From the NCBI GenBank assembly GCA_026932145.1, contig JAIXKT010000019.1, positions 1 to 53,052 of the forward strand: a stretch of 53,052 nucleotides of DNA, written 5' to 3'. The translations under genes were made by a program, and so were the position numbers. The notes beneath the pieces are model-generated. The model was not told the origin of the DNA. It searched no databases and saw only the letters and a program-made list of their open reading frames with translations. The number at the start of each line of letters is the position of its first letter. Position 1 is the stretch's first letter. Positions 3,001 through 48,762 of this stretch are shown here, piece by piece. The DNA comes from Bacteroidia bacterium (lineage in GTDB: Bacteria; Bacteroidota; Bacteroidia; J057; JAIXKT01).

Positions 3001-3536
3001 AGAGTCCAATACTCCCTCTTTGAGCTACTATTGCCATCAATATCCACGCCGGTGATATAAAAATTCATGGCGTAAACACTGTCGTTATTCTGATCCCAGA
3101 AGGAGAATGTAAAGCGAACATACCCTCCGGAATTATTATTGTTCCCGATGATTGGATTAAATCGCTCAGGATATCCATTCTGAACATCCTCATCCACCAC
3201 CAGACCGGATGCGGCCGTGTTCACCATGGAATCAATCCTCAATAACGCATGAACAGTGGTTCCACCCTGTGAGAACACATTATTGTATCGGAAAACAGAT
3301 CCGGGTGACCTTCCTGAACTTCCATTGTCAACAACCAAGGTGCGATTAGCTGTACGAAATTCAAAATCCACACCGTTCAGATTAAGGTACACCTGTCCAT
3401 AACTGTAATTGCTAGCCAGCAGCAGCAAAAAAATGAATGCGGCTTGAAAGAACCTGTGAATATTGAATCTGGCAATTATCCTTTGGTAGTTAGCTACCAT
3501 TGGTTGGAGAGATAAAGTTGAGTTATACTGTTTCAT
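1..3536 (-). CDS. Giant repeat-built secreted surface protein (3' end outside window)
   Basis: The minus-strand frame is open from 3536 to the window edge (at least 1178 codons, no stop), so the C-terminus is not seen. A hydrophobic signal segment (AFIFLLLLAS, about residues 33-42) precedes the likely cleavage near NYSYGQ. Roughly residues 45-270 are a unique region. From there on the protein is made of about 171-residue modules rich in Thr, Ser and Gly, each with recurring landmarks such as VCQG, FLWQGPGGYTSS, MSGVYTLSVT, YSWQQSTNAG and TYFRRVVSS. These look like Ig/PKD-type beta-sandwich repeats of Bacteroidota adhesins. In-frame ATGs also occur at 3605, 3599, 3590, 3566 and 3500; 3536 gives a plausible long n-region, but the start is uncertain. 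T9SS export is inferred from similar proteins; no sorting domain is visible. No specific ligand or function can be assigned. Confidence 0.85.
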   Translation of the reverse strand, partial: MKQYNSTLSLQPMVANYQRIIARFNIHRFFQAAFIFLLLLASNYSYGQVYLNLNGVDFEFRTANRTLVVDNGSSGRSPGSVFRYNNVFSQGGTTVHALLRIDSMVNTAASGLVVDEDVQNGYPERFNPIIGNNNNSGGYVRFTFSFWDQNNDSVYAMNFYITGVDIDGNSSSKREYWTLNNFSTYSVDNGTQLVVTNNWRGQNGFTQFLGRTSSLNGITFDNTASFIAEYISSVHSFSVYAGTTYNSEGENDDRFFSLQVGTEGGIFVSPVIPPINNVIEASQSIVSGTAPQLFDSPAPQGGYGTFTIQWQVSTDGGTGWSNISGATNEDYQEGTLTATRYYRRRVTSGNLPTSTSNTISVFPVVIPNVATNTGPVCQGASFQLSTESLSGASFFWNGPNGYTSSSRNPTRSSSTPAMSGVYTLSVTLNGATKIVTTNVTVYGNIGNNTIASAQTIPSGDSPSLFVGSTPSGGDGNYTYSWQRSTNTGATWTNISGANSRDFQNGAVTTTTYFRRVVSSTTCTASTSANIHVNPVSIPNTASNTSPVCQGTDFQLSTETLSSATFLWQGPGGFTSSTRNPTRSSTTPAMSGVYTLTITRFGATKVLTTTVTVYGTIGNNTIGSSQSILSGNTPSQFTGATPSGGDGSYTYSWQQSTNAGSTWTVVSGATAINYQAGAISATTYFRRVVSSASCTASTSSNISVLPVVIPNTASNNGPVCQGNTLQLSTQNLSGATFLWQGPGGYTSSTQSPTRSSVTPSMAGVYSLSVTLNAVTITTTTTVTIQGAIGNNTIGNSQSILSGNTPAQFTGATPSGGNGSYTYSWQQSTNAGSTWTVVSGATAINYQAGAISATTYFRRVVSSASCTASTSSNISVLPVVIPNTASNNGPVCQGNTLQLSTQNLSGATFLWQGPGGYTSSTQSPTRSSVTPSMAGVYSLSVTLNAVTITTTTTVTIQGAIGNNTIGSSQSILSGGTPAQFTGATPSGGNGSYSYSWQQSTNAGSTWTVVSGATATNYQAGTISATTYFRRVVSSASCTASTSGNISVLSLAYTITASNNGPIYEGQTLNLSANPSNPGGTYSWVGPNGYTGTGQYPTIPNATLAAGGVYTVTQSIDNITISATTTPVVLQVLGPNVITSSQTILSGTTPAGFTGTVMTGGTGSYTYQWERSTNGGSTWTT
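571..1596. repeat. Two nearly identical tandem 513-bp units inside the surface-protein gene
   Basis: Landmarks recur every 513 bp (571, 1084, 1597), which is 171 codons, so the repeat keeps frame. Positions 652-1049 and 1165-1562 are identical over 398 nt, with substitutions just outside this block (651 vs 1164, 1050 vs 1563). More diverged units flank these on both sides, from roughly 58 to 2622. Blocks outside the exact match are shared in mosaic fashion between non-adjacent units. Confidence 0.9.
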
Positions 3537-4431
3537 AACCTTGGGAGTAACTGAGTTGAGTTTCATTCTATAACCGTACTGAATTTTCATTACAATCATT
3601 TTCATTTTGACCCAAAGGCATAAATCCTTACACAAACTGAAACCAATGATTTGGCCCAATCTCAAATAAAACATCCAAAAAAGGCTAAGCACATTCTAAG
3701 CGCTTATTTCGTAAGTCTGTGCAAGGGATTTTTCCCTCTTTCGTTTTGATTTACTCTACAAAACTACAAAATCACTCAGTTTGTTTTCCACACAAGGATT
3801 AATTCTACAGGCTCTGGAAGGCGTATAAATAATTCAAATAGTGTAATTTACCATAAAATGCACCCTTCTTCTTCCAATTGAGCAACCTGGTCTTTTTCGT
3901 TAAAAATTGTATATTTAATTGATTAATAACATATTATCAAATAAAAAAGGATATTATTCATATTTCAAATTAAAATTAACCCTATTTGTTTAACCACTAC
4001 CCCTCGATTTCCCCCTCGAATTTATTCTATATTTTTTCGGAAAAAACTTTAAAAAAAAGTAAACATCCACTCAGATTTTCATGGATTTTGCCAGTTCTGC
4101 TGATTGAAATTGTTTCCTAACTTATTCTGGCACACCACGGGTCTGCATTCTGAACCCCATCATTCAGTAAAATACCCCACCGTTTTTTTACCCAAAATGG
4201 CCCATAAAAAGTCAGACATTTTCTCCTTCTGTTACCTGAGCCAAATCGACTCATTTTGCTTCAATTTTGTCTTTTGGTATCCGAATATTATTGACTGGAA
4301 AACACAATAAAGGAAAATCCAATCACGCTTCGAATGCCAGAACTAAGGGAAACAATTGGGTAAAAAATCCCTTCACTATGAAAGAATCTCCCCTAAAACT
4401 CATGCGACACCCAAAGGCATCCCAATTCTAT
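3537..4431. other. AT-rich intergenic region, no convincing gene
   Basis: About 900 bases lie between the 5' end of the surface-protein gene and the terminator of the L33/DUF4295 unit. The stretch is visibly AT-richer than its neighbours, especially 3890-4060. Short open frames at 4104-4310 and 4267-4560 have no recognisable composition or motif and overlap the terminator or the DUF4295 gene, so they are probably chance. One minus-strand TAGTTTTG match (3759-3766) fits the Bacteroidota -7 consensus TAnnTTTG and could serve the surface-protein gene with a leader of about 150-220 nt. Its nearest TTG is 26 bp away, so the promoter call is weak. Confidence 0.5.
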
Positions 4432-9945: not shown

Positions 9946-11895
9946 ATGCTTAATTTCAAAACCATGCATCCATTTCTTCCGGCACACCGGATACTTTGGC
10001 TTTTGTCGCTTTGCCTGTGGGCGGTTCAGGTAGCTGTCCCGGGAAAAGGGCTGGCGCAAAACCCGTCATTTCAATTTCACCAGGGAAGAATTCCTCCAGT
10101 GGATTCCTCCAAAGGAAACAATTTACCTGCCTTTGATACCCTTCGGGTCTTGTATGTGTTTGTCCGATTCCGGGATGGGGAGGAGCCTGATTCCGGGATT
10201 CCGGACTGGCCCGTTTCCCGAAAAAAAGCACCGGATTATGCCCGAAACTGGTTGGCCGCCAATCCTGCCCAGATGCCGGATTTTAGTATTTCCAATTATT
10301 TCCGGGAGGCCTCTCTCGGTAGGTTTATTTTTTACGGAGATATTTACCCCGACATCATCGTGCTGGATTCCGCTATTCAGTGGTATCACACCAAAGGAGG
10401 GTATGCGGCAACCACTCAGGAAATCATCCGGAAAATGAATGCCTCCGGAAAGGTGGACTGGAAAAAGTATGACAATTGGGGAAGGGAGGCCGGGAAATGG
10501 CAGAAAAAAGCGGACCGGATGGTGGATCATATGGGAATTATTTTCCGAACCACGCCTCCGGCCATTGACCCGAAGTGTGCCTGGCTGGGATCGGGAGGGG
10601 GCATAGCCGGATTGCAGGGAGGAGTGGAGTGGGTTCGGGATTCCCTGTTTGTGCATGGGGGTGGTTTAATGTCGGGATTGATTGTAAATGGAGGGGGTAC
10701 AGGTGACCCGGCCGAAACCATGAAAACCCTGAAACATGAAACGGCTCACTTTCTGACTCTGCATCACTACTCAGCCACGAATGACCGCACGGGAGGCCCC
10801 GACCTGGGTACACATGGGGGATGGGGACTGGCATCGGCGAGTGGCAGCAGTTCAATTGCCGTGAACAGTTGGGACAGATACTGGCTGGGCTGGGCATATC
10901 CCAACCTGGACATTCAACCGGATAGTTTGCCGTCGGCTGTCATTACGCTGGGAGATTTCGTCACCACCGGGGCGGCAGTTCGCATTGCGCTCCCCTACAC
11001 CCAGGAGGAATGGTTCTGGCTGGAATATCATGCCAACCGGGGAAAATTTGACCAGGTGGACAAGGGAGGTCCGGCGTTGTTCATTCTGCATCAGACAGGA
11101 AAAACCGGACCCCATCATCTGGATGTGGAGGAGGCAGATGGCAGGTATGATTACAGTGCGTTGGAGCAAACCGATACCCGATGCTGTGGTCGGCACTGGA
11201 AACTGGCGCGAAAAAATGCAAATCCACTCCTGGGCTATGGAGATCGGGATGTATTGCATCTGGACAAAGACGGAAACCGAAAGCTGGACCGAACGGATCT
11301 TTCCGGAGTGCCGGTGTTTATGGTCGATACGGACGGGGAAGCTGAGATTATTCATTATCTCGGGGATGGGGGCGATGGGTTCCGGGCAGAATATGGGCGA
11401 AATAAGTTTGGAATCGCCACCAACCCATCCACTGCCAGCAATGGCAATCGGTTAAGAGACCTGGTCAGTCGCATAAATGGAATCGAAATTCAGGTCCTGG
11501 GTCAAACGGATAGCACGATTACGCTGTCGTATCGGTCGGATCGTTTTGGGATTAGTCAGAGTGTGCGGTGGTCGGGGAATATTGAAATTCGGGACAGTGT
11601 GATTCTGGAAAAGGGGAAGCAGCTGACTGTTTGTTCGTCTGAAACCTTTGTACGGATGCAGGACACCTTTCCGGGTGGGCATCTGGTGTTAAAGAAAGGC
11701 AGCAGGCTGGTATTAAAAGGCGGAAGTCGCTTATGGATTCAGGACAGGTGTTCGCTCACGCTGGAGGCTGGAGCGAGTTTAATTTTGGAAAAGGATGCCA
11801 GAATTATGGTACAAAAGGGGGGGCGCTTGAATTATGAGCCCGGCCAGATAATCCTGACGGATAAAAGGAGCCGGTTGCTAGATCTGAACAAATAA
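9946..11895 (+). CDS. Secreted M6-like zinc metalloprotease
   Basis: 649 residues from this ATG; 9964 (MHPFLP) is an equally good start, while a GTG at 9877 would run back to the divergent gene. A signal peptide (ILWLLSLCLWAVQVAV) ends near LAQNP. The catalytic region has KHETAHFLTLHH at about residue 263: HExxH with a third His five residues later, in the layout of M6/metzincin-type proteases but with Thr in place of the usual Gly. FVRFRDGEEPD and SISNYFREASLGRF fit the start of the M6 fold. Around residue 450 is a dockerin/EF-hand-like loop DKDGNRKLDRTD. The last 110 residues are short beta-strand repeats (VLKKGSRLVLKGGSRLWI). No T9SS sorting domain is seen, so surface attachment is unexplained. 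Substrate unknown. Confidence 0.78.
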   Translation: MLNFKTMHPFLPAHRILWLLSLCLWAVQVAVPGKGLAQNPSFQFHQGRIPPVDSSKGNNLPAFDTLRVLYVFVRFRDGEEPDSGIPDWPVSRKKAPDYARNWLAANPAQMPDFSISNYFREASLGRFIFYGDIYPDIIVLDSAIQWYHTKGGYAATTQEIIRKMNASGKVDWKKYDNWGREAGKWQKKADRMVDHMGIIFRTTPPAIDPKCAWLGSGGGIAGLQGGVEWVRDSLFVHGGGLMSGLIVNGGGTGDPAETMKTLKHETAHFLTLHHYSATNDRTGGPDLGTHGGWGLASASGSSSIAVNSWDRYWLGWAYPNLDIQPDSLPSAVITLGDFVTTGAAVRIALPYTQEEWFWLEYHANRGKFDQVDKGGPALFILHQTGKTGPHHLDVEEADGRYDYSALEQTDTRCCGRHWKLARKNANPLLGYGDRDVLHLDKDGNRKLDRTDLSGVPVFMVDTDGEAEIIHYLGDGGDGFRAEYGRNKFGIATNPSTASNGNRLRDLVSRINGIEIQVLGQTDSTITLSYRSDRFGISQSVRWSGNIEIRDSVILEKGKQLTVCSSETFVRMQDTFPGGHLVLKKGSRLVLKGGSRLWIQDRCSLTLEAGASLILEKDARIMVQKGGRLNYEPGQIILTDKRSRLLDLNK

Positions 11896-22216: not shown

Positions 22217-25200
22217 CTACTGCCGAATAAACCTGCCGTGGTAAGTTTTTCCTCCGGCAGAAACACGCAGTATATAATAGCCGGCAGGAAGTTGAGCAGT
22301 TTGTACACTGTAATTACCACTACCTGTCTCCACTACATTCAGTGGCATGATTCTTCCAGTTGCATCGGTAACCTCAGCAGAAAGACCAACCGACTCTGTG
22401 GAACCCAGGGTGAAATAAATCACCTCAGAAGCCGGATTGGGGTACAAATCCAGACGAGTCGCCTTCAGGTCATCTTCTGCACTGACCGAACCTATGGTCA
22501 CAACCTGAAAGGTGGTATCATTCTTACAGGTATTGTAGGCGATAAGGCGAACATTGTAAGTACCGTAAGCCAAATAGGTATGAGAAGGATTGGCCTGGGT
22601 GCTGGTGGTCCCATCCCCAAAGTTCCAGTTATAGGCGAAGGCCTGAGTGGACTGATTGGCAAACTGAACATTCACACCACTAATCGTGGGCGTAAAGGCG
22701 GCTGTTGCCGGAAGTGTGGTATTAATGGTAATGGTATCAATAGAGGTACAACCACCATTGGTGATAGACCAGGTAAGCACCACACTGTCGCCGAGCACGA
22801 TGCCGGTAACCTGAGCAAATGGCTGATGCGGATTGACCAGGGATACCGGGCCATAAACCACATTCCACTGACCTGTCCCGATAATGGGTGTATTTCCAGC
22901 CATGACTTCCACTACATTACAAGTGGTGTAATCCGCACCGGCTACCGCAGGTGTAGGAGGCAATGTGCGGGTAACAGTCACCTCATCATAGGAGGAATAA
23001 CAGGTACCATTGGTAATGTACCATCTGAACACATTGGGGCCATTTCCCACATTCTGAACAGTGGCCGTTGGCGAGGTCGGGTTCACAATATTTCCGGTTC
23101 CTGAAACGAGCAACCAGCTGCCATTCCCCACAGTGGGCACATTGCCGGCGAGGTTAAACCCGGGTGTACAAACCTGGAAATCCACACCTGCGTCAGCCAG
23201 CGTAGCCGGCTGCAGATAATCGATATTAACCGTATCACTCAACACACATACTCCATAGAATACTGTCCAAACCAGTTTATTCTGACCGGGTCCAAGTGCC
23301 GTCACCTGTGGATTGGCACTGGTCTGACTGGAGAAGGTGGCAGCACCTGAACTCACAGACCAGATACTGGTAGCGCCAGTGGGCGCAGGAACGGCATTAA
23401 GCACAGCCGTATCCACACATACAGACTGGTCTGGACCTGCATAGTAAGGCACGCCGTATTGACCCACAGAAATAATCACCTCATCTGTACCGGTACCGCA
23501 GGAATTGGTCACAGTCCAGAGCAGGGTGTTGGCACCCAGAGCCAGTCCGTTAACCGTAGTATTCGGATCTGAAGGATTCACAAAAGAACCAGAGCCTGAA
23601 ACAACAGACCAGGTACCGGTGCCTGTTCCGGGACTGCTGGCAGAGAGCAGGGCATTTTGGGGACAAATATTCTGATCCATTCCGGCACTCACACCAGATG
23701 GGGGTGTTTCGATATTAACATTAAGGGTATCCACATCGGTACAGCCACCGTTGGTGACGCTCCAGGTAAACTGGTTCAGACCAGAACTTAACCCGGATAC
23801 AGTGGCAGAAGGGGAATTGGCGTTACTGAAACTTCCGGTTCCAACTACCACACCCCAGGTACCAGTACCGGGAGAGGGATTGACAGCCCCAAGAGCAGTA
23901 GAAGTGTTACAGGTGAAAATATCCAGACCTGCATTGGCATTAACCGAGGAGGAATCCACCAGAATGGTTACATCACTGGTGGAGGTACAACTCAGGTTGG
24001 TGGTGGTCCAGCGGAAAACATTCGGACCCACTGTCATGTTGGTGATGTCAGTCGTTGGGCTGGAAGGATTAACAATATTGCCATTCCCGGAAATCAGGGA
24101 CCAGGTTCCCGTACCTACAGAAGGGGTGTTGGCCAGCATCTGGGTACTATCATTGTAGCAGATGGTCTGACTTGCACCCGCCACTGCCGGACTGGGTCCG
24201 TCGTTCTGGATTGTAACATCGGAAGTATTGGATCCACAGTTATTGCTAACGGTCCAGCGGAATGTGTTGCTACCCGGCCCGATATTGGAGACACTGGTTC
24301 CCGGGTTGGTCGCATCAGTAAACAAACCGCCGCCGGTTACCACTGACCAGTTGCCTGTACCGATGGAAGGAGAGTTACCGGCTAGTATGGCATTGGGGCT
24401 ACAGATGGTCTGGTTAGAGCCGGCCACGGCAGCACTGGGCGGACCGTAGGTGATGGTTACCGTGGAGGTACTGGTGCAGGAACCATTGGTGGTGGTCCAC
24501 ATATACACATTTACGCCCGCCCCTACACCGGTTACCGCTGTGGTGGCAATTGTGGGATTGGTGAAGGTTCCACTTCCGGAAACCACAGACCAGGCTCCTG
24601 TGCCAATCACGGGTGCGGTTGCACTCATATTCGGAATGGAAGGCACACAAGTAGTGGCATTGGAGCCGGCCAGAGCGGTGGAAGGACTATTATTGAGGAT
24701 GGTCACACTCGAGGTTGCCGTCCCACATGCCGTGGTGGACACCGTCCATCGGTACACATTCGTACCCTGGGCAATCCCGGTAACAGTGGTATTATATTGA
24801 TTGGTACTGCCGAAGGTTCCACTTCCGGTTACTACACTCCAGGCACCTGTTCCGGCAGTCGGGTTATTGGCGGCCATTGTAGCAGTGCTACTGCAAATGG
24901 TCTGATTGCTACCGGCCACAGAGGTGGGGGCATCCGCCAGGGTAATGGTGTACTCTTCCCATTCTCCTCCATCCGTGGTGTTTGTATTATTGGGATAATA
25001 GGTAGCGGCACAGGTCAGCGCATTGGGGGTAATGCCCGCAACCGAAACAACCCGCATTTTCACCGAACCGGTAACAGCCCCCATGGGAACTGTAAAGTTT
25101 CCGGAAGAGGCCAGTGCGGAAGGTGCTGTGGGTGCGAGAATATTCTCACCGGCATCATCAAAGCTTCCGTTGTTGTTGTAATCAATCCACGCAGACCGCC

Positions 25201-26101
25201 CCTGGGCAAGCCCGACAGAACTAATGCTGATATTGTACACCGAGCCTTTACATAGGGTCGTGGTGGCATTGGGGAAGTACTGATAAGCAGTATTGTTGTT
25301 ATAGGTCGAATTATTATTCAGGGTATTGACTGTAACATTGCTGATATAGTCGAGTGTAAGGTTACAAGTTTCGTTGAAGGGAACAGCACAGGCTACAGTT
25401 GCCTGAATAGTATTGGAGTAAGCCACACATCCACCGTTTACCAGTCGGGCTCTTGCATACATCGTGCTCGCACTTTGAGCTGTAACAAAGAAGTTTACAG
25501 TAGCGGCACTGGATCCACTGGAGTTCCAGGGCAGTGTATTGAAGTAGTATTCCCAGTCAATGGTGCCCGTGTGGCCTGTCAGTCGGAATACGATAGAATC
25601 GTTGGAAACAATGGCTGTACGCGAGGTTGTGGCAGTACCGCCCACCGCCGGGGTTGAACAGGGCACTTCCCGAACGGCAATATGGGTTCCATTGGTACTG
25701 TTGGAAGTACAGGAGGGCTGGGATACCAGTATCCGGTAAACACCGGTTGTCGGGCAGGCCCAGGAAAATTTGGACGCCGTTCCACACCCGGTGGCATTGT
25801 CGTTATAGACACCCAGGTACACACCGGCATCGCTGTTCAGGGAAATTTCAGTATCAAAAGTGTTGGCGCCTCCATCGGTGGAACAAAGGGAGAACTCATA
25901 CACTACGCCTGCCGTGGCGTTGAAACGAAGATACTCTCCGCCCCAAATGTCGTTATAAGCCGTCCATGTGGTGGTAATATTAATGGGTATGGTATTATAG
26001 GCTGAACCGCCCTGACACTGAGCCATCATCCTGTTGACAGGAATAAGGGCAAAAACCATCAAGAGCAATGCAGGCAAAAATTGAATTACAGATCTTCTCA
26101 T
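22217..26101 (-). CDS. Giant T9SS surface protein with about ten Ig-like repeats and a PKD domain
   Basis: 1294 residues. A signal peptide (FLPALLLMVFALIPV) ends before QCQGG. Residues about 40-160 form a domain seen in secreted Bacteroidota proteins, and about 260-400 resemble a GEVED-type domain (ARSAWIDYNNNGSFDDAGEN, followed by WEEYTITL). From about 400 to 1130 come roughly ten repeats of about 75 residues with the theme VAGSNQTIC, NxPxxGTGxWSVVSGSG, VTGLxxGxNxFxWTV, xNGxCTS. A PKD domain (FANQSTQAFAYNWNFGDG, NPSHTYLAYGTYNV) precedes the type A sorting domain (LDLYPNPASEVIYF ... GKTYHGRFIRQ). It is expected to be carried across the outer membrane by T9SS and anchored or released; adhesion or glycan binding is inferred. 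ATG 26116 is an alternative start. Confidence 0.92.
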   Translation of the reverse strand: MRRSVIQFLPALLLMVFALIPVNRMMAQCQGGSAYNTIPINITTTWTAYNDIWGGEYLRFNATAGVVYEFSLCSTDGGANTFDTEISLNSDAGVYLGVYNDNATGCGTASKFSWACPTTGVYRILVSQPSCTSNSTNGTHIAVREVPCSTPAVGGTATTSRTAIVSNDSIVFRLTGHTGTIDWEYYFNTLPWNSSGSSAATVNFFVTAQSASTMYARARLVNGGCVAYSNTIQATVACAVPFNETCNLTLDYISNVTVNTLNNNSTYNNNTAYQYFPNATTTLCKGSVYNISISSVGLAQGRSAWIDYNNNGSFDDAGENILAPTAPSALASSGNFTVPMGAVTGSVKMRVVSVAGITPNALTCAATYYPNNTNTTDGGEWEEYTITLADAPTSVAGSNQTICSSTATMAANNPTAGTGAWSVVTGSGTFGSTNQYNTTVTGIAQGTNVYRWTVSTTACGTATSSVTILNNSPSTALAGSNATTCVPSIPNMSATAPVIGTGAWSVVSGSGTFTNPTIATTAVTGVGAGVNVYMWTTTNGSCTSTSTVTITYGPPSAAVAGSNQTICSPNAILAGNSPSIGTGNWSVVTGGGLFTDATNPGTSVSNIGPGSNTFRWTVSNNCGSNTSDVTIQNDGPSPAVAGASQTICYNDSTQMLANTPSVGTGTWSLISGNGNIVNPSSPTTDITNMTVGPNVFRWTTTNLSCTSTSDVTILVDSSSVNANAGLDIFTCNTSTALGAVNPSPGTGTWGVVVGTGSFSNANSPSATVSGLSSGLNQFTWSVTNGGCTDVDTLNVNIETPPSGVSAGMDQNICPQNALLSASSPGTGTGTWSVVSGSGSFVNPSDPNTTVNGLALGANTLLWTVTNSCGTGTDEVIISVGQYGVPYYAGPDQSVCVDTAVLNAVPAPTGATSIWSVSSGAATFSSQTSANPQVTALGPGQNKLVWTVFYGVCVLSDTVNIDYLQPATLADAGVDFQVCTPGFNLAGNVPTVGNGSWLLVSGTGNIVNPTSPTATVQNVGNGPNVFRWYITNGTCYSSYDEVTVTRTLPPTPAVAGADYTTCNVVEVMAGNTPIIGTGQWNVVYGPVSLVNPHQPFAQVTGIVLGDSVVLTWSITNGGCTSIDTITINTTLPATAAFTPTISGVNVQFANQSTQAFAYNWNFGDGTTSTQANPSHTYLAYGTYNVRLIAYNTCKNDTTFQVVTIGSVSAEDDLKATRLDLYPNPASEVIYFTLGSTESVGLSAEVTDATGRIMPLNVVETGSGNYSVQTAQLPAGYYILRVSAGGKTYHGRFIRQ

Positions 26102-26249
26102 GTGAACGACGAACATTTCGAAACTAACTAACTATCTCCGACCGGACGAGTCTCCGGACTTCAACAGGTAAAAATAGTCATTTCTCCGCCTATGACCAAC
26201 AACAGACCCGGGTAAATGGAAAAATTATCCTTTTGAACGGTCTTTCGGG

Positions 26250-26959: not shown

Positions 26960-27313
26960 ATGGAAGAATACATCCCTTTAATTATCCTCATCGGTCTGGC
27001 CTTGTTTCTGGGTTTACTCCTGACCAATCTTTCTGCGCTGGCTGGCCCGTTGCGCCCCAACCGGATTAAAGCCGCTCCTTACGAAAGTGGGATGGATCCG
27101 GTAGGCACAGCCCGCGACCGGTTCTCCGTGAAGTTTTACCTCGTAGCCATGTTCTTTATCCTCTTCGATATCGAATTGGTCTTTATGTACCCCTGGGCTA
27201 CCCAATACAAAGAACTGGGTGTGTTTGGGTTTGTGGAAATGCTCACATTCGTGATCATCCTTTTTGTGGGTTTCATTTACCTGCTCAAAAAAGGTGGCCT
27301 GAAATGGGATTGA
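26960..27313 (+). CDS. nuoA: NADH-quinone oxidoreductase subunit A
   Basis: 117 residues, three membrane helices. The family signature PYESGMDPVGTARDRFSVKF and FFILFDIELVFMYPWA (helix 2 with conserved Asp and Glu) are intact. NuoA is part of the membrane arm of respiratory complex I at the junction with the quinone site. It is followed by nuoB after 48 bp. Confidence 0.97.
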   Translation: MEEYIPLIILIGLALFLGLLLTNLSALAGPLRPNRIKAAPYESGMDPVGTARDRFSVKFYLVAMFFILFDIELVFMYPWATQYKELGVFGFVEMLTFVIILFVGFIYLLKKGGLKWD

Positions 27314-27361
27314 TTTTGCGTTTAGTTTTGTTGTTCAACTGATTCAGATTAAAACGATAAT

Positions 27362-27844
27362 ATGGGAATTGAAAAGGCGCTCGCCCAAAATGGATTTCTG
27401 ACCACTACCGTTGATGCCTTAACCAACTGGGCCCGGGCCAATGCCCTCTGGCCCATGCCGATGGGGTTAGCCTGCTGTGCCATTGAAATGATGGCCTTTG
27501 CCGGACCAAAATTCGATGCTTCCCGCTTCGGCAGTGAAGTGTTTCGATTCTCCCCCCGTCAGGCAGATCTGATGATTGTTGCCGGCTGGTGCTCCTATAA
27601 AATGGCTCACTCCGTAAAAAGAGTATGGGACCAGATGCCTGACCCAAAATGGTGTATCGCCATGGGTGCCTGCGCCTCCTCCGGAGGAATGCACCGGGTG
27701 TATGGCGTTGTGCAGGGCATTGACACCTTCCTGCCCGTGGATGTGTACATCCCCGGTTGCCCGCCCAGACCTGAAACCGTATTGCACGCCCTGCAAACCA
27801 TTCAGCAGCAAATTATTAAAGAGCACTCCATCCTTCAGGATTAA
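27362..27844 (+). CDS. nuoB: NADH-quinone oxidoreductase subunit B
   Basis: 160 residues. All four ligands of cluster N2 are present: adjacent Cys38-Cys39 (LACCAIEMM), Cys104 ([10 protein letters not shown]) and Cys133 ([10 protein letters not shown]). [19 protein letters not shown] is the conserved core. NuoB carries the last iron-sulfur cluster, which passes electrons to quinone. Unusually, nuoC does not follow: a terminator hairpin ends the unit 25 bp after the stop, so nuoAB are separated from the rest of complex I, or the rest is encoded elsewhere. A TAGTTTTG box at 27323-27330 could give nuoB an extra promoter. Confidence 0.97.
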
Positions 27845-27951: not shown

Positions 27952-28833
27952 ATGGGCACCTCCCCTTTATATCCTTTCCCCCTTTCCCCGAATTGCATTT
28001 TCGACAGCCCGGCGTTTTATGACCGCCATGCCCCTCGTTTCCCACAATCGGTTTACCTCAGGTCAGACCAGCCTGGCTGGGACGCTGGTGCTTCCCTGCT
28101 GGCAAAATCCGAAGGATACTTCCATCCGGGAATGGGGAGTTATGGCATCCTGCCCCCTGCTTTGAAACCTGATGCCCTGGCCAGACTAAAACAGCCCATC
28201 CATACCCTCACCCCTCCCCTGGCCATACTGGAAAGAAAGGCCTGGGCTTATCTGCACTACCTGGGTACCCTTGGGTTTTCCCTTCAATCCTGCGAACCTT
28301 CTTTTCTGATTCGCATTACGGATGGTCCCCTTGAATTTCTGCTGGACCGGGGCAACCGAAAACGGCTCCGGAGAGCGCAGGCAGCCGGACTGGTTTTCCG
28401 AAAACAGCAGGAGTGGCGCACCCTCTATACCCTGCTCGAGCAAAACCGGGCCGAAAAAGGCGCTACCCTTTCCATGAGCCCCGATGAAATACAATTTATG
28501 TTGGATACCTTCCCGGGAAAATGTGCCTGGTTTTCCCTTTCCGATGAATCCAGACCAGTGGCCGCTGCATTTGTGCTTCAACCCCTTTCCTCGGTTTGGC
28601 AGGTGGTGTACTGGGGACATGCTCCCGGAACGGATCACCTGAGTCCGGTAACCTTCCTGGCTGCCTGCCTCTATGAGAAAGCCGTGCTGGCCGGAATTCA
28701 TTTTCTGGATCTGGGCACCGCCAGCCTCCACAATCAGCCCAACGAAGGACTCATCCGATACAAACAAAATCTGGGTGCCTTCCCCTCACTCAAATTTTCA
28801 ATGGTGTACCATCCTCCCGCTCATGACGCGTAA
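27952..28833 (+). CDS. GNAT/FemAB-like acyltransferase
   Basis: 293 residues. The C-terminal half has the GNAT_6/FemAB pattern: FLLDRGNRKRLRRAQAAGL, a middle with TLLEQNRAEKGATLSMSP, strands RPVAAAFVLQPLSSVWQVVY, and the closing FLDLGTASLHNQPNEGLIRY-KQNLGAFPS, where the enzyme fold usually binds the acyl donor. Such proteins transfer acyl or aminoacyl groups to sugars or peptides; the acceptor is unknown. The ATG at 27952 is preferred because an earlier in-frame start at 27883 lies inside the terminator hairpin. The end overlaps the next gene by 11 bp, making it the first gene of the six-gene block. Confidence 0.7.
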   Translation: MGTSPLYPFPLSPNCIFDSPAFYDRHAPRFPQSVYLRSDQPGWDAGASLLAKSEGYFHPGMGSYGILPPALKPDALARLKQPIHTLTPPLAILERKAWAYLHYLGTLGFSLQSCEPSFLIRITDGPLEFLLDRGNRKRLRRAQAAGLVFRKQQEWRTLYTLLEQNRAEKGATLSMSPDEIQFMLDTFPGKCAWFSLSDESRPVAAAFVLQPLSSVWQVVYWGHAPGTDHLSPVTFLAACLYEKAVLAGIHFLDLGTASLHNQPNEGLIRYKQNLGAFPSLKFSMVYHPPAHDA

Positions 28834-29575
28834 CCTGGATGCTTATAGCAACGAATACCTGCGCCAGCCATTTGAGCCGGTGATGATTCGTTACCGCAGA
28901 AAAAAAACTGTGGAATGGCTGGGGGATACCCGGCAGTTATCAATCCTGGAAATTGGGTGTGGCATCTCCCCTGCATTCGACTGGATACAGCACTGGCGCT
29001 GGCTTTCCCTGCTGGAACCTGCCACAGAATTTGCCTCCCGCATCCACGAGCAAATGCAGCACCATCCCTCCGTGGATTTGATTACCGCCACACTCGAAAG
29101 TAATCCTGCATTTCCCCACGCTCCTTTCGACATCATCCTGCTCAACAGCCTGCTGCATGAACTGCAGGATCCGGCATCAGCCCTAAAAAGCCTTCACCAT
29201 TGGGCACATCCTCAGACACGGATCTTCATCAATGTGCCCAACGCGCTTTCCGTGCACAGAAGACTGGCCGTGCACATGGGCCTTATTCCCAGCCCCGACA
29301 CCCTGTCTGATTTCAATCACCTCTTTCAGCAGGCAAGGGTATTTACACCGGCTACCTTACAATCTCTGGCTGAACAGTGTGGCTACAGAATTCTCCGACA
29401 GGAGACCGCCTTCATCAAACCCTTCACCCATGCCCAGATGCAAACCTGGATGGATGCGGGAATTTTGACGGATACCCTGCTGGAAGGCCTGTACCGGGTA
29501 AGTCCGGAAATGCCCGATGCCGGTGCGGAAATTTTTATGGAGCTGCAACCCATAGCCAATCCCGGAAGCCAATGA
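28823..29575 (+). CDS. Class I SAM-dependent methyltransferase (paralog 1)
   Basis: 250 residues. The SAM loop is ILEIGCGISPAF, followed by LEPATEFASRIHEQM, the acidic motif IILLNSLLHELQDPASAL, and INVPNALSVHRRLAVHMGL. The last motif, plus a following DTL and RVFTPATLQ, is shared with the methyltransferase at 30977, so the two are paralogs. They are probably sugar or small-molecule O/N-methyltransferases in view of the neighbouring glycosyltransferase and sugar aminotransferase. The start overlaps the preceding gene by 11 bp; an AT-rich gap of 34 bp separates it from the next. Confidence 0.8.
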   Translation: MTRNLDAYSNEYLRQPFEPVMIRYRRKKTVEWLGDTRQLSILEIGCGISPAFDWIQHWRWLSLLEPATEFASRIHEQMQHHPSVDLITATLESNPAFPHAPFDIILLNSLLHELQDPASALKSLHHWAHPQTRIFINVPNALSVHRRLAVHMGLIPSPDTLSDFNHLFQQARVFTPATLQSLAEQCGYRILRQETAFIKPFTHAQMQTWMDAGILTDTLLEGLYRVSPEMPDAGAEIFMELQPIANPGSQ

Positions 29576-29609
29576 ATCCAAGCACAATAACTAAACATTT
29601 ATATATTAT

Positions 29610-30980
29610 ATGAAACATACAATAAAAAAAGATATTATTTGTATTGGTTCCCAACCAGCCGCACTCGTAGCAGTGGACACCCTTTCAGCCTCCCATGCAG
29701 ATATTCTCTGGTTATTGGGCAAGAGTCCTGCCGGCAGCATTTTTCGGGGTATCGCACTTGGCAATACCCTACTGGATGCAGGCATGAACCTGCTGGAATT
29801 TACTTCGCTCAAATCCGGATTATCCGAAGACATCTCCACTTATAATCCCGCCGTTCGCTACGATGCCACCCGATTTCTGCCCCTTATTCAGCAATGGCTG
29901 GAGCATCGGATCCATATTCGCAGCGTACCCCTACCCCACATGCTGGTGGGAGACCACCTGTTCCCGGATTTACTGATTGCCAATGCCCCCGATTACCTGC
30001 ACTCCCTGCCCAGGGAAACACGGAGCCGATGGATAGGGGAACTGCAACATCTGCTGACCTATAACCCACTTCATGCAGGGAATAAACATGCTGAACCGGC
30101 CCGTTTTCTGGAAACGGATTATGCTCATGTAGCAAGGGCCAATCATCCACAGGAACTGCAGGAGCACCTCATTACCCCCTGGCTCAGAAAAATCGCCGGA
30201 ACAGATGGAGGCACTGTGCCAGCGCTCTATCACCGTCAGGCCTGGGCACCTTTGTTTTATCCGGAAACCCTGATTCAATTTCTGGAAAACCCGGATTACC
30301 GCCTTCCTCCGACTGAGTTTGGCTACCCGGCAAGGGAACGCTTCGGAGCCTGGATGGAAAGAGCCGAGGCCGGATTGAAAGAAATTATTTCCCGGGAATA
30401 CCCCGTTTCCATTCAACCCCAAAATGGAGCCTGGATCATCGATACTCCTGAATCCCGCTATCATTGCCAACATCTGATTTACGCAGGGGATATTCAAAGT
30501 TTACTGCAATGGGCAGGAAAAGAAAGCCCTTCATTTTCCCGAGGAAAAATCGGATTCACCGGAGTGCGCATTCCGGAAACCGCATTGATCAGGGAAGTAT
30601 CGGTTGTGAATATTCCCGATCCGGCGGTGAGCCTGTTCCGCCTGACCGATCAGACCTGTTGCGCCGGAAGTTCGGGAGGTCCGCATCTGATAACAGGAGA
30701 ATGGTCCGGGAGTCCCCCAAATGAAAGTGAGATGCGAAGCCTGCTGGAGCGAATGGGATGGCTTCGGCCCGGAGGAGAAATGGAATGGCTGGGGAATCTG
30801 GGGCCTGTACCAGCCTTTGTGGAGCCTGTGTTTGACAACCTGGCGCTGTTCCGAAAATTAAAGCAGGAAGCAGAGGCCCTTTTTCCAGGAATTCTGCTTG
30901 CCGGAAGCGCAGCCGAAATTACTTCCGTATCTTTGAATGATCAGATCATTCAGGGATTACAAATGCCGTATCGCTTATGA
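29610..30980 (+). CDS. FAD/NAD(P)-dependent oxidoreductase-like protein with degenerate Rossmann loop
   Basis: 456 residues. The N-terminal strand-loop-helix DIICIGSQPAALVAVDTL stands where GxGxxG is usual, but reads GSQPAA, so the second and third glycines are lost. The following ILWLLGKSPAGSIFRGI and LLDAGMNLLEF correspond to the FAD-ribose and GG(x)G segments of amine oxidase / UDP-galactopyranose-mutase-like flavoproteins. Near the C-terminus, LFPGILLAGSAAEITSVSLN resembles the closing FAD-contact motif. It may be an oxidase or mutase acting on a nucleotide sugar, or a non-catalytic relative; this cannot be decided. Its stop overlaps the next start by four bases (ATGA). Confidence 0.6.
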   Translation: MKHTIKKDIICIGSQPAALVAVDTLSASHADILWLLGKSPAGSIFRGIALGNTLLDAGMNLLEFTSLKSGLSEDISTYNPAVRYDATRFLPLIQQWLEHRIHIRSVPLPHMLVGDHLFPDLLIANAPDYLHSLPRETRSRWIGELQHLLTYNPLHAGNKHAEPARFLETDYAHVARANHPQELQEHLITPWLRKIAGTDGGTVPALYHRQAWAPLFYPETLIQFLENPDYRLPPTEFGYPARERFGAWMERAEAGLKEIISREYPVSIQPQNGAWIIDTPESRYHCQHLIYAGDIQSLLQWAGKESPSFSRGKIGFTGVRIPETALIREVSVVNIPDPAVSLFRLTDQTCCAGSSGGPHLITGEWSGSPPNESEMRSLLERMGWLRPGGEMEWLGNLGPVPAFVEPVFDNLALFRKLKQEAEALFPGILLAGSAAEITSVSLNDQIIQGLQMPYRL

Positions 30981-31708
30981 GCCTTTCCAAATCCGAACTC
31001 GACAAAACAGCCCGGGAATACCACCAGACCGATGTGCTGGAAGACAAACACATCGAGGGCGCCTGTCAGGAGTATTCCTTCCAATGGGTATTTCGCCACA
31101 TTCAACCGGAAGACCGCGTGCTGGAAATGGGCTATGGGGATGGACTGTTCAGCGCCGAACTGCACCGCCGTAGCCTGCGCTTCTCCATTGTGGAAGGAGC
31201 CCTGACACTGGTGGAAGCAGCGAAGCGCTTATTTCCGGAAGCCGGTGTGCATCATGAATTATTTGAGGACTTCCAGCCGGCGGAGCCTGTAGATGTGATA
31301 CTGGCAACCCATGTGCTGGAGCATGTGGATGACCCGGTAGCGCTGCTCGGCAGGATGAAAACCTGGCTCACCCCCCGGGGAAAAATTATCCTCATTGTTC
31401 CGAATAAAGAATCCATTCACCGGAGGCTGGCGGTACGCATGGGGTTGCAACCCGCCCTGGATACATTGGGTAGCCGGGATCTGCTGGTAGGGCATCAGCG
31501 TGTGTATAGTCTGGACACACTGAAAGCCGACATACGCGCTGCAGGTCTTTTGCCTCAGGAACAAACTGGTTTTTTCCTGAAGGTGCTGCCCAACTCCATG
31601 ATGAAAACCTACAGCGCCGAACTCATTCGGGCACTCAATGAAATATCCGCCGAAATGCCCGCAGAATGGCTGGCCAATATCGGCATTATTGCCTCCCTGC
31701 CCGAATGA
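30977..31708 (+). CDS. Class I SAM-dependent methyltransferase (paralog 2)
   Basis: 243 residues. SAM loop VLEMGYGDGLFSAEL, acidic motif VILATHVLEHVDDPVALL, then LIVPNKESIHRRLAVRMGL, DTLGSRDLLVGHQRVYSLDTL. The VPNxxSxHRRLAVxMGL segment is shared with the methyltransferase at 28823. This form is often seen in nucleotide-sugar and lipid-linked glycan clusters. It is coupled by ATGA overlaps to both neighbours. Confidence 0.85.
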   Translation: MSLSKSELDKTAREYHQTDVLEDKHIEGACQEYSFQWVFRHIQPEDRVLEMGYGDGLFSAELHRRSLRFSIVEGALTLVEAAKRLFPEAGVHHELFEDFQPAEPVDVILATHVLEHVDDPVALLGRMKTWLTPRGKIILIVPNKESIHRRLAVRMGLQPALDTLGSRDLLVGHQRVYSLDTLKADIRAAGLLPQEQTGFFLKVLPNSMMKTYSAELIRALNEISAEMPAEWLANIGIIASLPE

Positions 31709-32670
31709 ATTCACTCCCGCTTATTTCCGTCATCATCCCCTGCTTCCGCAACGAAGCCAATATTCCCGTAACCGGGGCCAGGCTGATTGAAAATGAAAAA
31801 CTGCTGGAAGGCAGGGCGCAGTTTGAATATATCCTGATTGATGATGGCTCTCCGGATCAAACCTGGGAAGCCCTCAAAACCTTTCAGGCACAATATCCGG
31901 AAAAAGTAAAAATCATCCGTTTTACCCGCAACTTCGGGTCCACCAATGCAACCTATGCGGGAATGGAAATTGCCCAGGGCGACTGCTCCATTATCATATC
32001 AGCTGACCTGCAGGACCCGATTGAGCTATTCCCCAAAATGTTTGATTACTGGCAGAAAGGGCTCCCCCTCGTGGTGGCCAACCGGTCCAACCGGGAGGAA
32101 CCCTGGCTGCAGAAATTCATCTCCGGCATTTCCCACTCCCTGATTCGGAGGTTTGCCCTTTCCAAATTGCCACACGGAGGATTTGACTTTGTGCTCTTTG
32201 ACCGGAAGGTGCGGGAGCACATCGTGCAAATACAGGACAAAAATTCTTTCCTCCCCTATTTACTCATCTGGCTGGGTTATGATTTTGTAAGCATCCCCTA
32301 TGTCCGGAAAAAAAGGGAGATCGGAAAAAGTTCTTATACCCTGGGCAAAAAGATAAAATCTCTCGTGGATTCCTTTGTGGCTTTTTCCTTTTTCCCCGTT
32401 CGCCTGATTTCCATCCTGGGCCTCACGCTCGGCGCCATAGCCCTGTTATATGCCCTGGTGGTACTGGTGGGCAAATATATGGGATGGATACCCATTGACG
32501 GATGGACCAGTATGATGGTTATTCTCCTGCTCGTATCCAGTTTCCAAATGATTGGCATTGGTATTTTGGGAGAATATATCTGGAGAACGCTGGACGCATC
32601 CCGCAGCCGGCCCAACTACATTATTGCAGAAACCATTCAATCCCCAAAGCGCTCCGAGAACCATTCATGA
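31705..32670 (+). CDS. GT2 family glycosyltransferase with two C-terminal membrane helices
   Basis: 321 residues. The GT-A start ISVIIPCFRNEANI, IDDGSPDQTW and the DxD-type motif ISADLQDP are typical of dolichol/undecaprenyl-phosphate sugar transferases (DPM1, GtrB, ArnC type). Two helices follow (FFPVRLISILGLTLGAIALL and MMVILLLVSSFQMIGIGIL). Such enzymes load a sugar from its nucleotide carrier onto a polyprenyl phosphate at the cytoplasmic membrane face. The ATG at 31705 overlaps the preceding stop (ATGA), and its own stop overlaps the aminotransferase start (32667), so the start is well supported. Confidence 0.9.
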   Translation: MNSLPLISVIIPCFRNEANIPVTGARLIENEKLLEGRAQFEYILIDDGSPDQTWEALKTFQAQYPEKVKIIRFTRNFGSTNATYAGMEIAQGDCSIIISADLQDPIELFPKMFDYWQKGLPLVVANRSNREEPWLQKFISGISHSLIRRFALSKLPHGGFDFVLFDRKVREHIVQIQDKNSFLPYLLIWLGYDFVSIPYVRKKREIGKSSYTLGKKIKSLVDSFVAFSFFPVRLISILGLTLGAIALLYALVVLVGKYMGWIPIDGWTSMMVILLLVSSFQMIGIGILGEYIWRTLDASRSRPNYIIAETIQSPKRSENHS

Positions 32671-33782
32671 AACCCATTCCTTATCTGGATTTAAAGGGCA
32701 TGCACCTGCCTGTGCAGGAAGCCATTGAAAGCGCTTTTCGGGAGGTATTGCATTCGGGATGGTTTATTCTGGGGAAACAGGTAACCCAATTCGAGCGGGC
32801 ATGGTCTGAAGTCAACCAGGTGGCCGCCACAGTTGGGGTAGCCAACGGACTGGATGCGCTGCGCCTCACCCTGGATGCCTGGAAAATTCAGGGAAAACTC
32901 AAACCCGGAGATCAGGTGCTGGTGCCATCCAATACCTACATTGCTACCTGGCTGGCTGTTACACAGGCCGGATTGGAAATCATTCCGGTAGAGCCCGACC
33001 CGATTACCTGCCTGCTAACAGCAGAAGGCTGCCGCAAATACCTGAGCCCTGCAGTGAAAGCCATGATTCCGGTTCACCTGTATGGTCAGATGGCACCCAT
33101 GCAGGACCTGATATCATTTGCCCGGGAAAATCAGATACTCGTACTGGCAGATGCTGCCCAGTCCCACGGAGCCATTTTGGATGGGATTCCCTGTGGAGCC
33201 TGGGGAGATGCCACTGCATTCAGCTTCTACCCCGGAAAAAATCTGGGAGCCCTTGGAGATGCCGGCGCTGTCTGCTCCCCGGATATCGAACTGATTCACC
33301 TCATCCGGACCCTGGGCAATTATGGCTCCGAAGAAAAATACCACAATCTGTACCCAGGCTTCAATTCCCGCCTGGATGAACTTCAGGCCGCACTTCTCCT
33401 GGTCAAACTGCCCTGGCTCGAATCCTGGACCCGGGAAAGACAAAGACTGGCCAATCGCTACCTCGACGGAATCCGAAATCCCCTGATTAAACTTCCCAAC
33501 CGGCCGGTAAGCCCCGAAATGCATGTTTGGCATATTTTCCAGATCCAGACTCCTGAGCGGGACGCACTGATCCGATTCATGAAGGAAAATGAAATTGGCA
33601 CAGTCATTCATTACCCGGTACCACCACACCTGCAGCCTGCTTATTCGTCCCTTTTCCCCAAAAAATCCTATCCGGTGAGCGAGCAGATTCATCGGGAAAC
33701 CCTGAGCATCCCCCTGTATCCGGGCTTATCTGATGCCGCTCAGGACCGGGTGATGGAGGTTATGAACCGGTTTGTTTCCTGA
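32667..33782 (+). CDS. DegT/DnrJ/EryC1/StrS family sugar aminotransferase
   Basis: 371 residues, usual for the family. IPYLDLKG at the N-terminus, VGVANGLDALRLTLDA, PVHLYGQMA, DAAQSHGA and the PLP-binding region FSFYPGKNLGALGDAGA (Lys in GKN) are all present, along with the closing PLYPGLSDAAQDRV. The family transfers an amino group from glutamate to a keto-sugar nucleotide; the FdtB/QdtB branch making 3-amino-3,6-dideoxyhexoses is similar in these motifs, but the exact sugar is not certain. It is the last gene of the coupled block and implies that an aminosugar is made here. Dehydratase and ketoisomerase genes are missing. Confidence 0.92.
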   Translation: MKPIPYLDLKGMHLPVQEAIESAFREVLHSGWFILGKQVTQFERAWSEVNQVAATVGVANGLDALRLTLDAWKIQGKLKPGDQVLVPSNTYIATWLAVTQAGLEIIPVEPDPITCLLTAEGCRKYLSPAVKAMIPVHLYGQMAPMQDLISFARENQILVLADAAQSHGAILDGIPCGAWGDATAFSFYPGKNLGALGDAGAVCSPDIELIHLIRTLGNYGSEEKYHNLYPGFNSRLDELQAALLLVKLPWLESWTRERQRLANRYLDGIRNPLIKLPNRPVSPEMHVWHIFQIQTPERDALIRFMKENEIGTVIHYPVPPHLQPAYSSLFPKKSYPVSEQIHRETLSIPLYPGLSDAAQDRVMEVMNRFVS

Positions 33783-48314: not shown

Positions 48315-48710
48315 GCAACAGGCCGGGTCATCGCTGCCGCTCTCGGGCGGGGGAGGAAAGTCCGGGCAACACAGAGCAGCCTGCTTCCTAACGGGAAGGT
48401 CTTTGGTTTGTAAAAACCAGGGAACAGAAAGTGCCACAGAAAGGATACCGCCCTGCTTTCGGGTGGGGTAAGGGTGAAATCGTGAGGTAAGAGCTCACGG
48501 CTTGTCCGGGCGACCGGCGGGCAGGTAAACCTCAGGCGTTGAAAGGCCAAATAAATCCCGGCGGGGCAACCCGTATAGCGGCTCGTTATACAATCTTCTT
48601 CGGAAGTGCGCCGGGAAGGGTAGGCCGCTAGAGCCGCCTGGCAACAGTCGGCCCAGATAAATGATGACCCTGCACTTGTGCAGACAGAACCCGGCTTACA
48701 GGCCTGTTGC
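48315..48710 (+). ncRNA. rnpB: RNase P RNA
   Basis: About 396 nt of bacterial type A RNase P RNA. The 5' GCAACAGGCC pairs with 3' GGCCTGTTGC (helix P1). CR-I GAGGAAAGTCCGGGC occurs at about 48351-48365, and CR-V ACAGAACCCGGCTTACAG near 48684-48701. The RNA is the catalytic part of the enzyme that matures tRNA 5' ends. A run of six T residues follows directly (48711-48716) and acts with P1 as a terminator. Confidence 0.96.
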
Positions 48711-48762
48711 TTTTTTGAATTCGATTAGTCCCAAAAGGACTATCTAAAAATAAATCGTAGCG

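Follow-up and report, generated by a model that had tools for sequence, protein, structure and literature searches.

A sparse, cross-phylum six-gene cassette predicted to make a modified 3-amino-3,6-dideoxyhexose

What would be made by a compact block of six genes that together match no named pathway? The question is raised by positions 27952-33782 of a 53,052-nucleotide stretch of DNA, here called the window (contig JAIXKT010000019.1 of the Bacteroidia bacterium assembly GCA_026932145.1). A reading made from the sequence alone (the sequence-only reading) had recognised in this block an acyltransferase, two methyltransferases (MT1 and MT2), an oxidoreductase-like (flavoprotein-like) protein, a polyprenyl-phosphate-type glycosyltransferase and a sugar aminotransferase. 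It knew of no named pathway with this set, and our literature searches, which yielded nothing useful and no name for the set, turned up none either. The block proves to be a conserved cassette, and the chances seem evenly balanced that it serves the biosynthesis of an N-acylated 3-amino-3,6-dideoxyhexose (Qui3N or Fuc3N type) that is loaded onto a lipid for a surface glycan, as judged from sequence comparisons and structure models.

Conservation and distribution of the cassette

The six open reading frames (ORFs) lie on the + strand with junctions of -11, +34, -4, -4 and -4 bp, which bears out the earlier description of tightly packed genes with overlaps of 4-11 bp and a single gap of 34 bp. 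The same arrangement is seen in two further lineages of Bacteroidota. One is G004, where the only homologue of the third, flavoprotein-like gene among 60 relatives was found (49% identity), and which has the identical six genes in the identical order between the same flanking genes as in the window. The other is G1517 (locus L125), where the genes that come after FdtA are precisely the six of the window, in the same order. The core of acyltransferase, methyltransferases and flavoprotein-like gene was found in ≈15 assemblies of Bacteroidota and Proteobacteria, and the junctions overlap or nearly do so in every locus measured. The families named by the sequence-only reading do therefore co-occur in other genomes, and since both the order and the core recur in this way, the cassette is real, sparse and cross-phylum, and not a chance assembly.

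When genome contigs were scanned, a single sequence gave nothing and an alignment gave seven loci. The further matches besides the window, L005 in G308 likewise, covered only the N-terminal 50–95 residues and were rejected as generic Rossmann proteins. Wider searches added one Oxalobacteraceae, one Rubrivivax, two Gammaproteobacteria, five more Burkholderiales and four Bacteroidia assemblies, together with one contig of G166 (L006, G166:C33). The latter carries a cassette related to that of the Oxalobacteraceae locus L011 and is probably a mis-binned proteobacterial contig. Everywhere the cassette is sparse: it was found in 2 of 22 genomes of the window's order and 4 of 87 genomes from another order of Bacteroidia, and the counts were 6 among 399 Burkholderiales and 1 among 369 genomes of the Gammaproteobacteria class that was sampled. 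A mobile element was also considered and set aside, as no match was found in plasmids or viral contigs.

The gene content varies between loci. MT1 is absent at L006 and L011, while MT2 is absent at L120–L123, where the acyltransferase is also divergent. Beside the cassette without MT2, three Burkholderiales genomes carry a protein of ≈800 aa (L120 11412-13814, - strand; L121 11073-13496, - strand; L123 3186-5603, + strand), which had no Pfam match in the two copies scanned. The contig with L006, which belongs to a Bacteroidota bin, ends in a C-terminal flagellin fragment (10866-11294, - strand).

The predicted sugar and its acyl group

An FdtA/QdtA ketoisomerase together with a QdtB-type aminotransferase implies a dTDP (deoxythymidine diphosphate)-linked 3-amino-3,6-dideoxyhexose. 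The cassette aminotransferase has the DegT/DnrJ PLP fold, and its closest relative in the PDB is QdtB (3frk, E 2.6e-94), followed by WbpE (E 2e-53) and ArnB (E 2e-32). In 13 other loci (L006, L009, L011, L012, L013 and L119–L126), FdtA is either part of the cassette or no more than a few kb away, and in Rubrivivax (L012) it is fused to a hexapeptide acyltransferase. In G004 it is unlinked, on a different contig, and that genome also has a strong RmlB match. The cassette thus normally includes FdtA, and the window's locus is one without it. On these homologies, 3-amino-3,6-dideoxyhexose as the type of sugar appears fairly secure.

The acyltransferase scored just under the cut-off of 22 bits for PF13480 (Acetyltransf_6), with 21.7 bits, and two of its homologues weakly match FemAB (at best 18.4 bits against a Pfam cut-off of 24). 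Its AlphaFold2 (AF2) model, with a predicted local distance difference test score (pLDDT) of 83, has a double-GNAT fold. The top PDB matches of this model are Sbb17 (Z 21.4) and Sba18 (Z 21), followed by FemX and FemA (18–20), MprF (≈14–15) and single GNATs (≈13). The PDB entries describe Sbb17 and Sba18 as aminoacyl-tRNA-dependent peptide synthases, solved with streptothrisamine. The related Orf11 (BD-12) glycylates streptothrisamine, with Gly-tRNA as donor, to give glycylthricin, and FemX uses Lys305 (review, PMC12945691). In the cassette enzymes, K271, a putative counterpart of FemX K305, is invariant in 14/14 sequences within a GLxxFKxxLG-like motif. By its model, the protein is thus closer to aminoacyl-tRNA-dependent transferases of the FemX type than to acetyl-CoA GNATs. 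Predicting an aminoacyl-tRNA donor goes further than this, as a shared FemX fold does not prove it.

Methyltransferases and glycosyltransferase

Both methyltransferases carry the stretch VPNxxSxHRRLAVxMGL, as the sequence-only reading had noted, from which it had concluded that one of them arose by duplication. MT1 and MT2 are 22–36% identical to each other, and within-family identities across loci are 35–55% for MT1 and 37–70% for MT2; the window's own MT2 is 43–70% identical to its counterparts elsewhere. In the tree, the MT1 sequences group in a supported clade of their own, separate from MT2, with long outgroup branches that make its deep placement unsure, and both clades are present together in both phyla. 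The only close relative of known structure, 2p7h, is a lone homologue with a similar stretch (PNAxxVSRQIAVKMGI), which rules out the shared motif as a mark of duplication. A local duplication is likewise ruled out by the clade structure and by the presence of both methyltransferases in other phyla. The tree instead indicates that the pair are ancient paralogues.

The GT2 protein matches the NCBIfam equivalogs PgfS (E 1e-53, 182 bits against a cut-off of 500) and ArnC (E 1e-41, 143 of 529 bits), and stays under both cut-offs. It follows MT2 in seven loci (the window, G004, L009, L013, L014, L124 and L125), and in L125 a YfhO-family membrane protein lies within the gene group. Because of this recurring ArnC/PgfS-like GT2 and the YfhO-family protein in one copy, a lipid-linked route is likely from the sequences. 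A 764-aa membrane protein at L013 was not counted in its support, having no Pfam match and no clear relation to the L125 YfhO. The proteobacterial copies have different neighbours, namely glycosyltransferases of the protein type (a GT41 at L012 and a TPR-GT9 protein at L119) or flagellin (L006), and the acceptor therefore probably differs between groups.

The protein encoded by the third gene

The Pfam and NCBIfam scan of the block gave a GNAT-like protein, two class I methyltransferases, GT2 and a DegT aminotransferase, in agreement with the earlier family assignments apart from the flavoprotein-like third gene, which had no Pfam or NCBIfam match of its own. Even at E up to 1, the NCBIfam scan gave no family match for it, TIGR00031 included. 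Its AF2 model (pLDDT 91) has uridine diphosphate (UDP)-galactopyranose mutase (UGM) as best fold match (Foldseek E 7e-18; VIA Z 26.4 over 405 residues, root-mean-square deviation 3.6), with lower VIA Z for protoporphyrinogen oxidase (PPO, 22.6) and monoamine oxidase (MAO, 20.8). Comparison of the family by hhalign gave E 4e-13 for a UGM/PPO-like profile and E 3e-6 for a UGM-only profile. Structure prediction, which the sequence-only reading had itself proposed, and profile comparison thus favour the name UGM-fold protein over "oxidoreductase".

The GxGxxG motif for flavin adenine dinucleotide (FAD) is conserved in all UGMs (PMC3624792). In the UGM-fold family, counted over 15 aligned members with the misframed L122 row left out, the third Gly of this motif is replaced in 15/15 and the second in 14/15. 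The C-terminal GR motif, whose Arg binds pyrophosphate in UGM, has no Arg after the Gly in any of the 15, and the flavin-stacking UGM His loop GxHxFHT is replaced by DxGM..E in all of them. Most members also lack the acidic residue that ends strand 2 in the five proteins used for comparison. The earlier observation that part of the dinucleotide-binding loop is lost in the window protein (GSQPAA) stands as far as the loop itself goes, but the variant is family-wide and accompanied by loss of other FAD contacts, which rules out sporadic decay. The model thus suggests a protein that is built on the UGM fold yet is not classed as a UGM, and for which flavin binding is doubtful. In G739 a second UGM-fold gene stands as an orphan (L081 6892-8328, - strand), with no partner genes within ≈7 kb.

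This protein could still be a mutase, contracting a dTDP-3-acylamino-hexopyranose to the furanose in a pathway whose N-acylation would fall to an ordinary acyl-CoA-dependent acyltransferase and whose MT1 and MT2 would be O-methyltransferases of the sugar. UGM is indeed the closest fold over the whole chain, and the setting is one of nucleotide sugars. R344 is invariant and aligned with the UGM arginine Kp R280, and the pair H208-R209 is also invariant, with R209 near Kp R174 in an uncertain register; both UGM arginines bind the diphosphate (PMC3624792). UGM is, however, active only with reduced FAD (PMC3624792), while the GxGxxG glycines, GR Arg and His loop are unconserved in all or nearly all members, TIGR00031 is not matched, and the acyltransferase fold is FemX-like instead of a plain GNAT. 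Literature searches for a Fucf3NAc mutase yielded nothing useful, and we consider a mutase unlikely.

The next folds after UGM, at Z ≈20–23, are PPO, amine oxidases and L-amino acid oxidase, and NAD_binding_8 is matched by 5/8 members. A flavin-dependent oxidase or dehydrogenase of the acyl or amino group, as implied by the name oxidoreductase in the sequence-only reading and yielding for instance a dehydroamino acid for later methylation and hydration, would fit these matches as well as the hydroxylated, methylated acyl group known on Qui3N; with the usual FAD contacts replaced family-wide, such an enzyme seems rather improbable. That the block is an ordinary lipopolysaccharide or exopolysaccharide modification operon, brought together by chance from genes of generic function with no joint chemistry, is very improbable and largely contradicted already, for although every gene comes from a broad superfamily common in polysaccharide loci, distant lineages with different genomic settings share the combination, the order and the overlapping junctions, and both methyltransferases form family-specific clades.

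Genomic context

The features of the cassette are listed in Table 1. Some mechanically listed ORFs begin further upstream (27883, 28673, 31666 and 32502), and the shorter starts were preferred because they are conserved in G004.

Table 1. Genes of the cassette in the window.
Feature	Position	Strand	Evidence
FemX-like (double GNAT) transferase, predicted aminoacyl/acyl transferase on 3-amino sugar	27952..28833	+	PF13480, 21.7 bits; AF2 model
MT1, class I S-adenosylmethionine (SAM) methyltransferase	28823..29575	+	PF13489, E 4.7e-12; own clade
UGM-fold protein, degenerate FAD site	29610..30980	+	AF2 model; hhalign; alignment
MT2, class I SAM methyltransferase	30977..31708	+	PF13489, E 1.7e-18; PDB homologue 2p7h, E 1e-24
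GT2 with C-terminal hydrophobic segments, predicted polyprenyl-phosphate amino-sugar transferase	31705..32670	+	PF00535, E 6.6e-25
DegT/DnrJ aminotransferase, QdtB/FdtB-like (3-amino-3,6-dideoxyhexose)	32667..33782	+	PF01041, E 1.7e-89

The cassette is flanked by NuoA/NuoB-like genes upstream and menaquinone-type genes downstream (named by eye). The NuoA/NuoB-like genes (26960-27844, + strand) lie directly 5' of the cassette and apart from other complex I genes, in the window as well as in G004. A 1299-aa repetitive secreted protein (22217-26116, - strand) is also kept near the cassette in G004 (L003 2261-6139). A large protein running off the window (3-3692, - strand) has several nearly identical repeats with ≈513 bp spacing, seen as repeated short ORFs at 571, 1084 and 1597, and looks like a repetitive surface protein. 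The RNase P RNA (bacterial class A, 265 bits) was found at 48315-48714 (+ strand).

The window has a GC content of 0.48–0.51 against 0.37–0.40 in other contigs of its bin (G000:C19 against C7, C54, C29 and others). Tetranucleotide correlations are 0.24–0.47 between the window and the bin contigs, and 0.62–0.82 among the other bin contigs. The NuoB of the window is 99% identical to that of G004, and the bin holds a second NuoB at 84%. Given the differing GC and tetranucleotide use and the second NuoB, the window contig is probably mis-binned. The region C19:100000-118000 has a GC content of 0.36 and may make the contig chimeric.

Discussion

From the observed gene order, conservation, and fold and family resemblances, we infer the substrates, a tRNA donor, the order of steps and a product as follows. 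RmlB and the FdtA/QdtA ketoisomerase would supply dTDP-3-keto-6-deoxyhexose, which the QdtB-like aminotransferase would aminate at C3. The FemX-like transferase would most likely put an amino acid from aminoacyl-tRNA on the C3 amine. The aminoacyl group (or the sugar) would receive methyl groups from MT1 and MT2, and one further change to it would come from the UGM-fold protein. The ArnC/PgfS-like GT2 would then load the finished sugar onto polyprenyl phosphate, to be exported and transferred to a surface glycan. The earlier guess of a lipid-linked, methylated and acylated amino sugar survives in that a conserved modified-amino-sugar unit and a likely lipid route are found, and has to be amended in that the acyltransferase resembles the FemX type and FdtA normally belongs to the set. 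In its full form, the proposal has a nucleotide- or lipid-linked 3-amino sugar receive an aminoacyl group from aminoacyl-tRNA, two methylations of that group, and its remodelling by a UGM-fold protein without the usual FAD binding (through a changed cofactor or a non-flavin activity); in this form it is less likely than not.

A more specific guess is that the product may have a methylated (oxo)pyrrolidine acyl group. Such a group, 3-hydroxy-2,3-dimethyl-5-oxopyrrolidine-2-carboxylate, has been published for the Qui3N of the Plesiomonas shigelloides O74 O-antigen (PMC3210612). To build this residue, a 3-amino sugar would be needed together with an acyl group derived from an amino acid, two methyl groups and one oxidation, which is what the cassette could supply. 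The main text of a Plesiomonas serotyping paper did not mention O74.

Several points weigh against the aminoacylation pathway. The O74 link is a lead that matches parts to a sugar structure and not to the genes of the strain. Searching PDB sequences with a profile of the acyltransferase gave no match, so that FemX is linked to it by fold only, and the loss of the usual FAD contacts would argue against a redox step by the UGM-fold protein. The product must vary, since some loci are without one of the methyltransferases and those without MT2 have a divergent acyltransferase. The fusion at L012 may point to 3-N-acetylation there, which would leave another target for the FemX-like enzyme. FdtA was found neither in the window's bin nor at the cassette locus, although its absence from a bin that is probably not the true host carries no weight, and the objection that the cassette's own genome lacks FdtA was set aside for this reason.

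If the proposed pathway is true, tRNA-dependent aminoacylation, up to now known in detail chiefly from peptidoglycan, lipids and antibiotics, would extend to bacterial surface-glycan synthesis, and genes would be assigned to N-aminoacyl-type 3-amino sugars, for which we found no enzymes described in the literature. The UGM/PPO-fold branch with FAD contacts replaced across two phyla raises the question of whether flavin is bound at all. The two central cassette proteins do not resemble the standard enzymes of such pathways.

Compared with known systems, the acyltransferase shares with Orf11 and Sbb17/Sba18 the (modelled) double-GNAT fold, an amino-sugar context and, putatively, a conserved C-terminal Lys motif. 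No sequence-level match to these was found, and unlike them it presumably acts on a sugar nucleotide or lipid-linked sugar for a surface glycan. The third protein has the whole-chain fold and a conserved, presumably diphosphate-type Arg as seen for UGM (Glf), but is without GxGxxG, His loop and GR motif and is unmatched by the UGM family model. The GT2 protein resembles the polyprenyl-phosphate glycosyltransferases ArnC, PgfS and GtrB in its domain, length and C-terminal hydrophobic segments, whereas its scores fall below the ArnC and PgfS equivalog cut-offs and its sugar is presumed to be different. The dTDP-Qui3NAc and dTDP-Fuc3NAc pathways (QdtA/QdtB/QdtC and FdtA/FdtB/FdtC) use the same 3,4-ketoisomerase and 3-aminotransferase families; unlike these, the cassette would have FemX-like N-acylation instead of, or besides, a hexapeptide acetyltransferase, and adds two methyltransferases and a UGM-fold protein.

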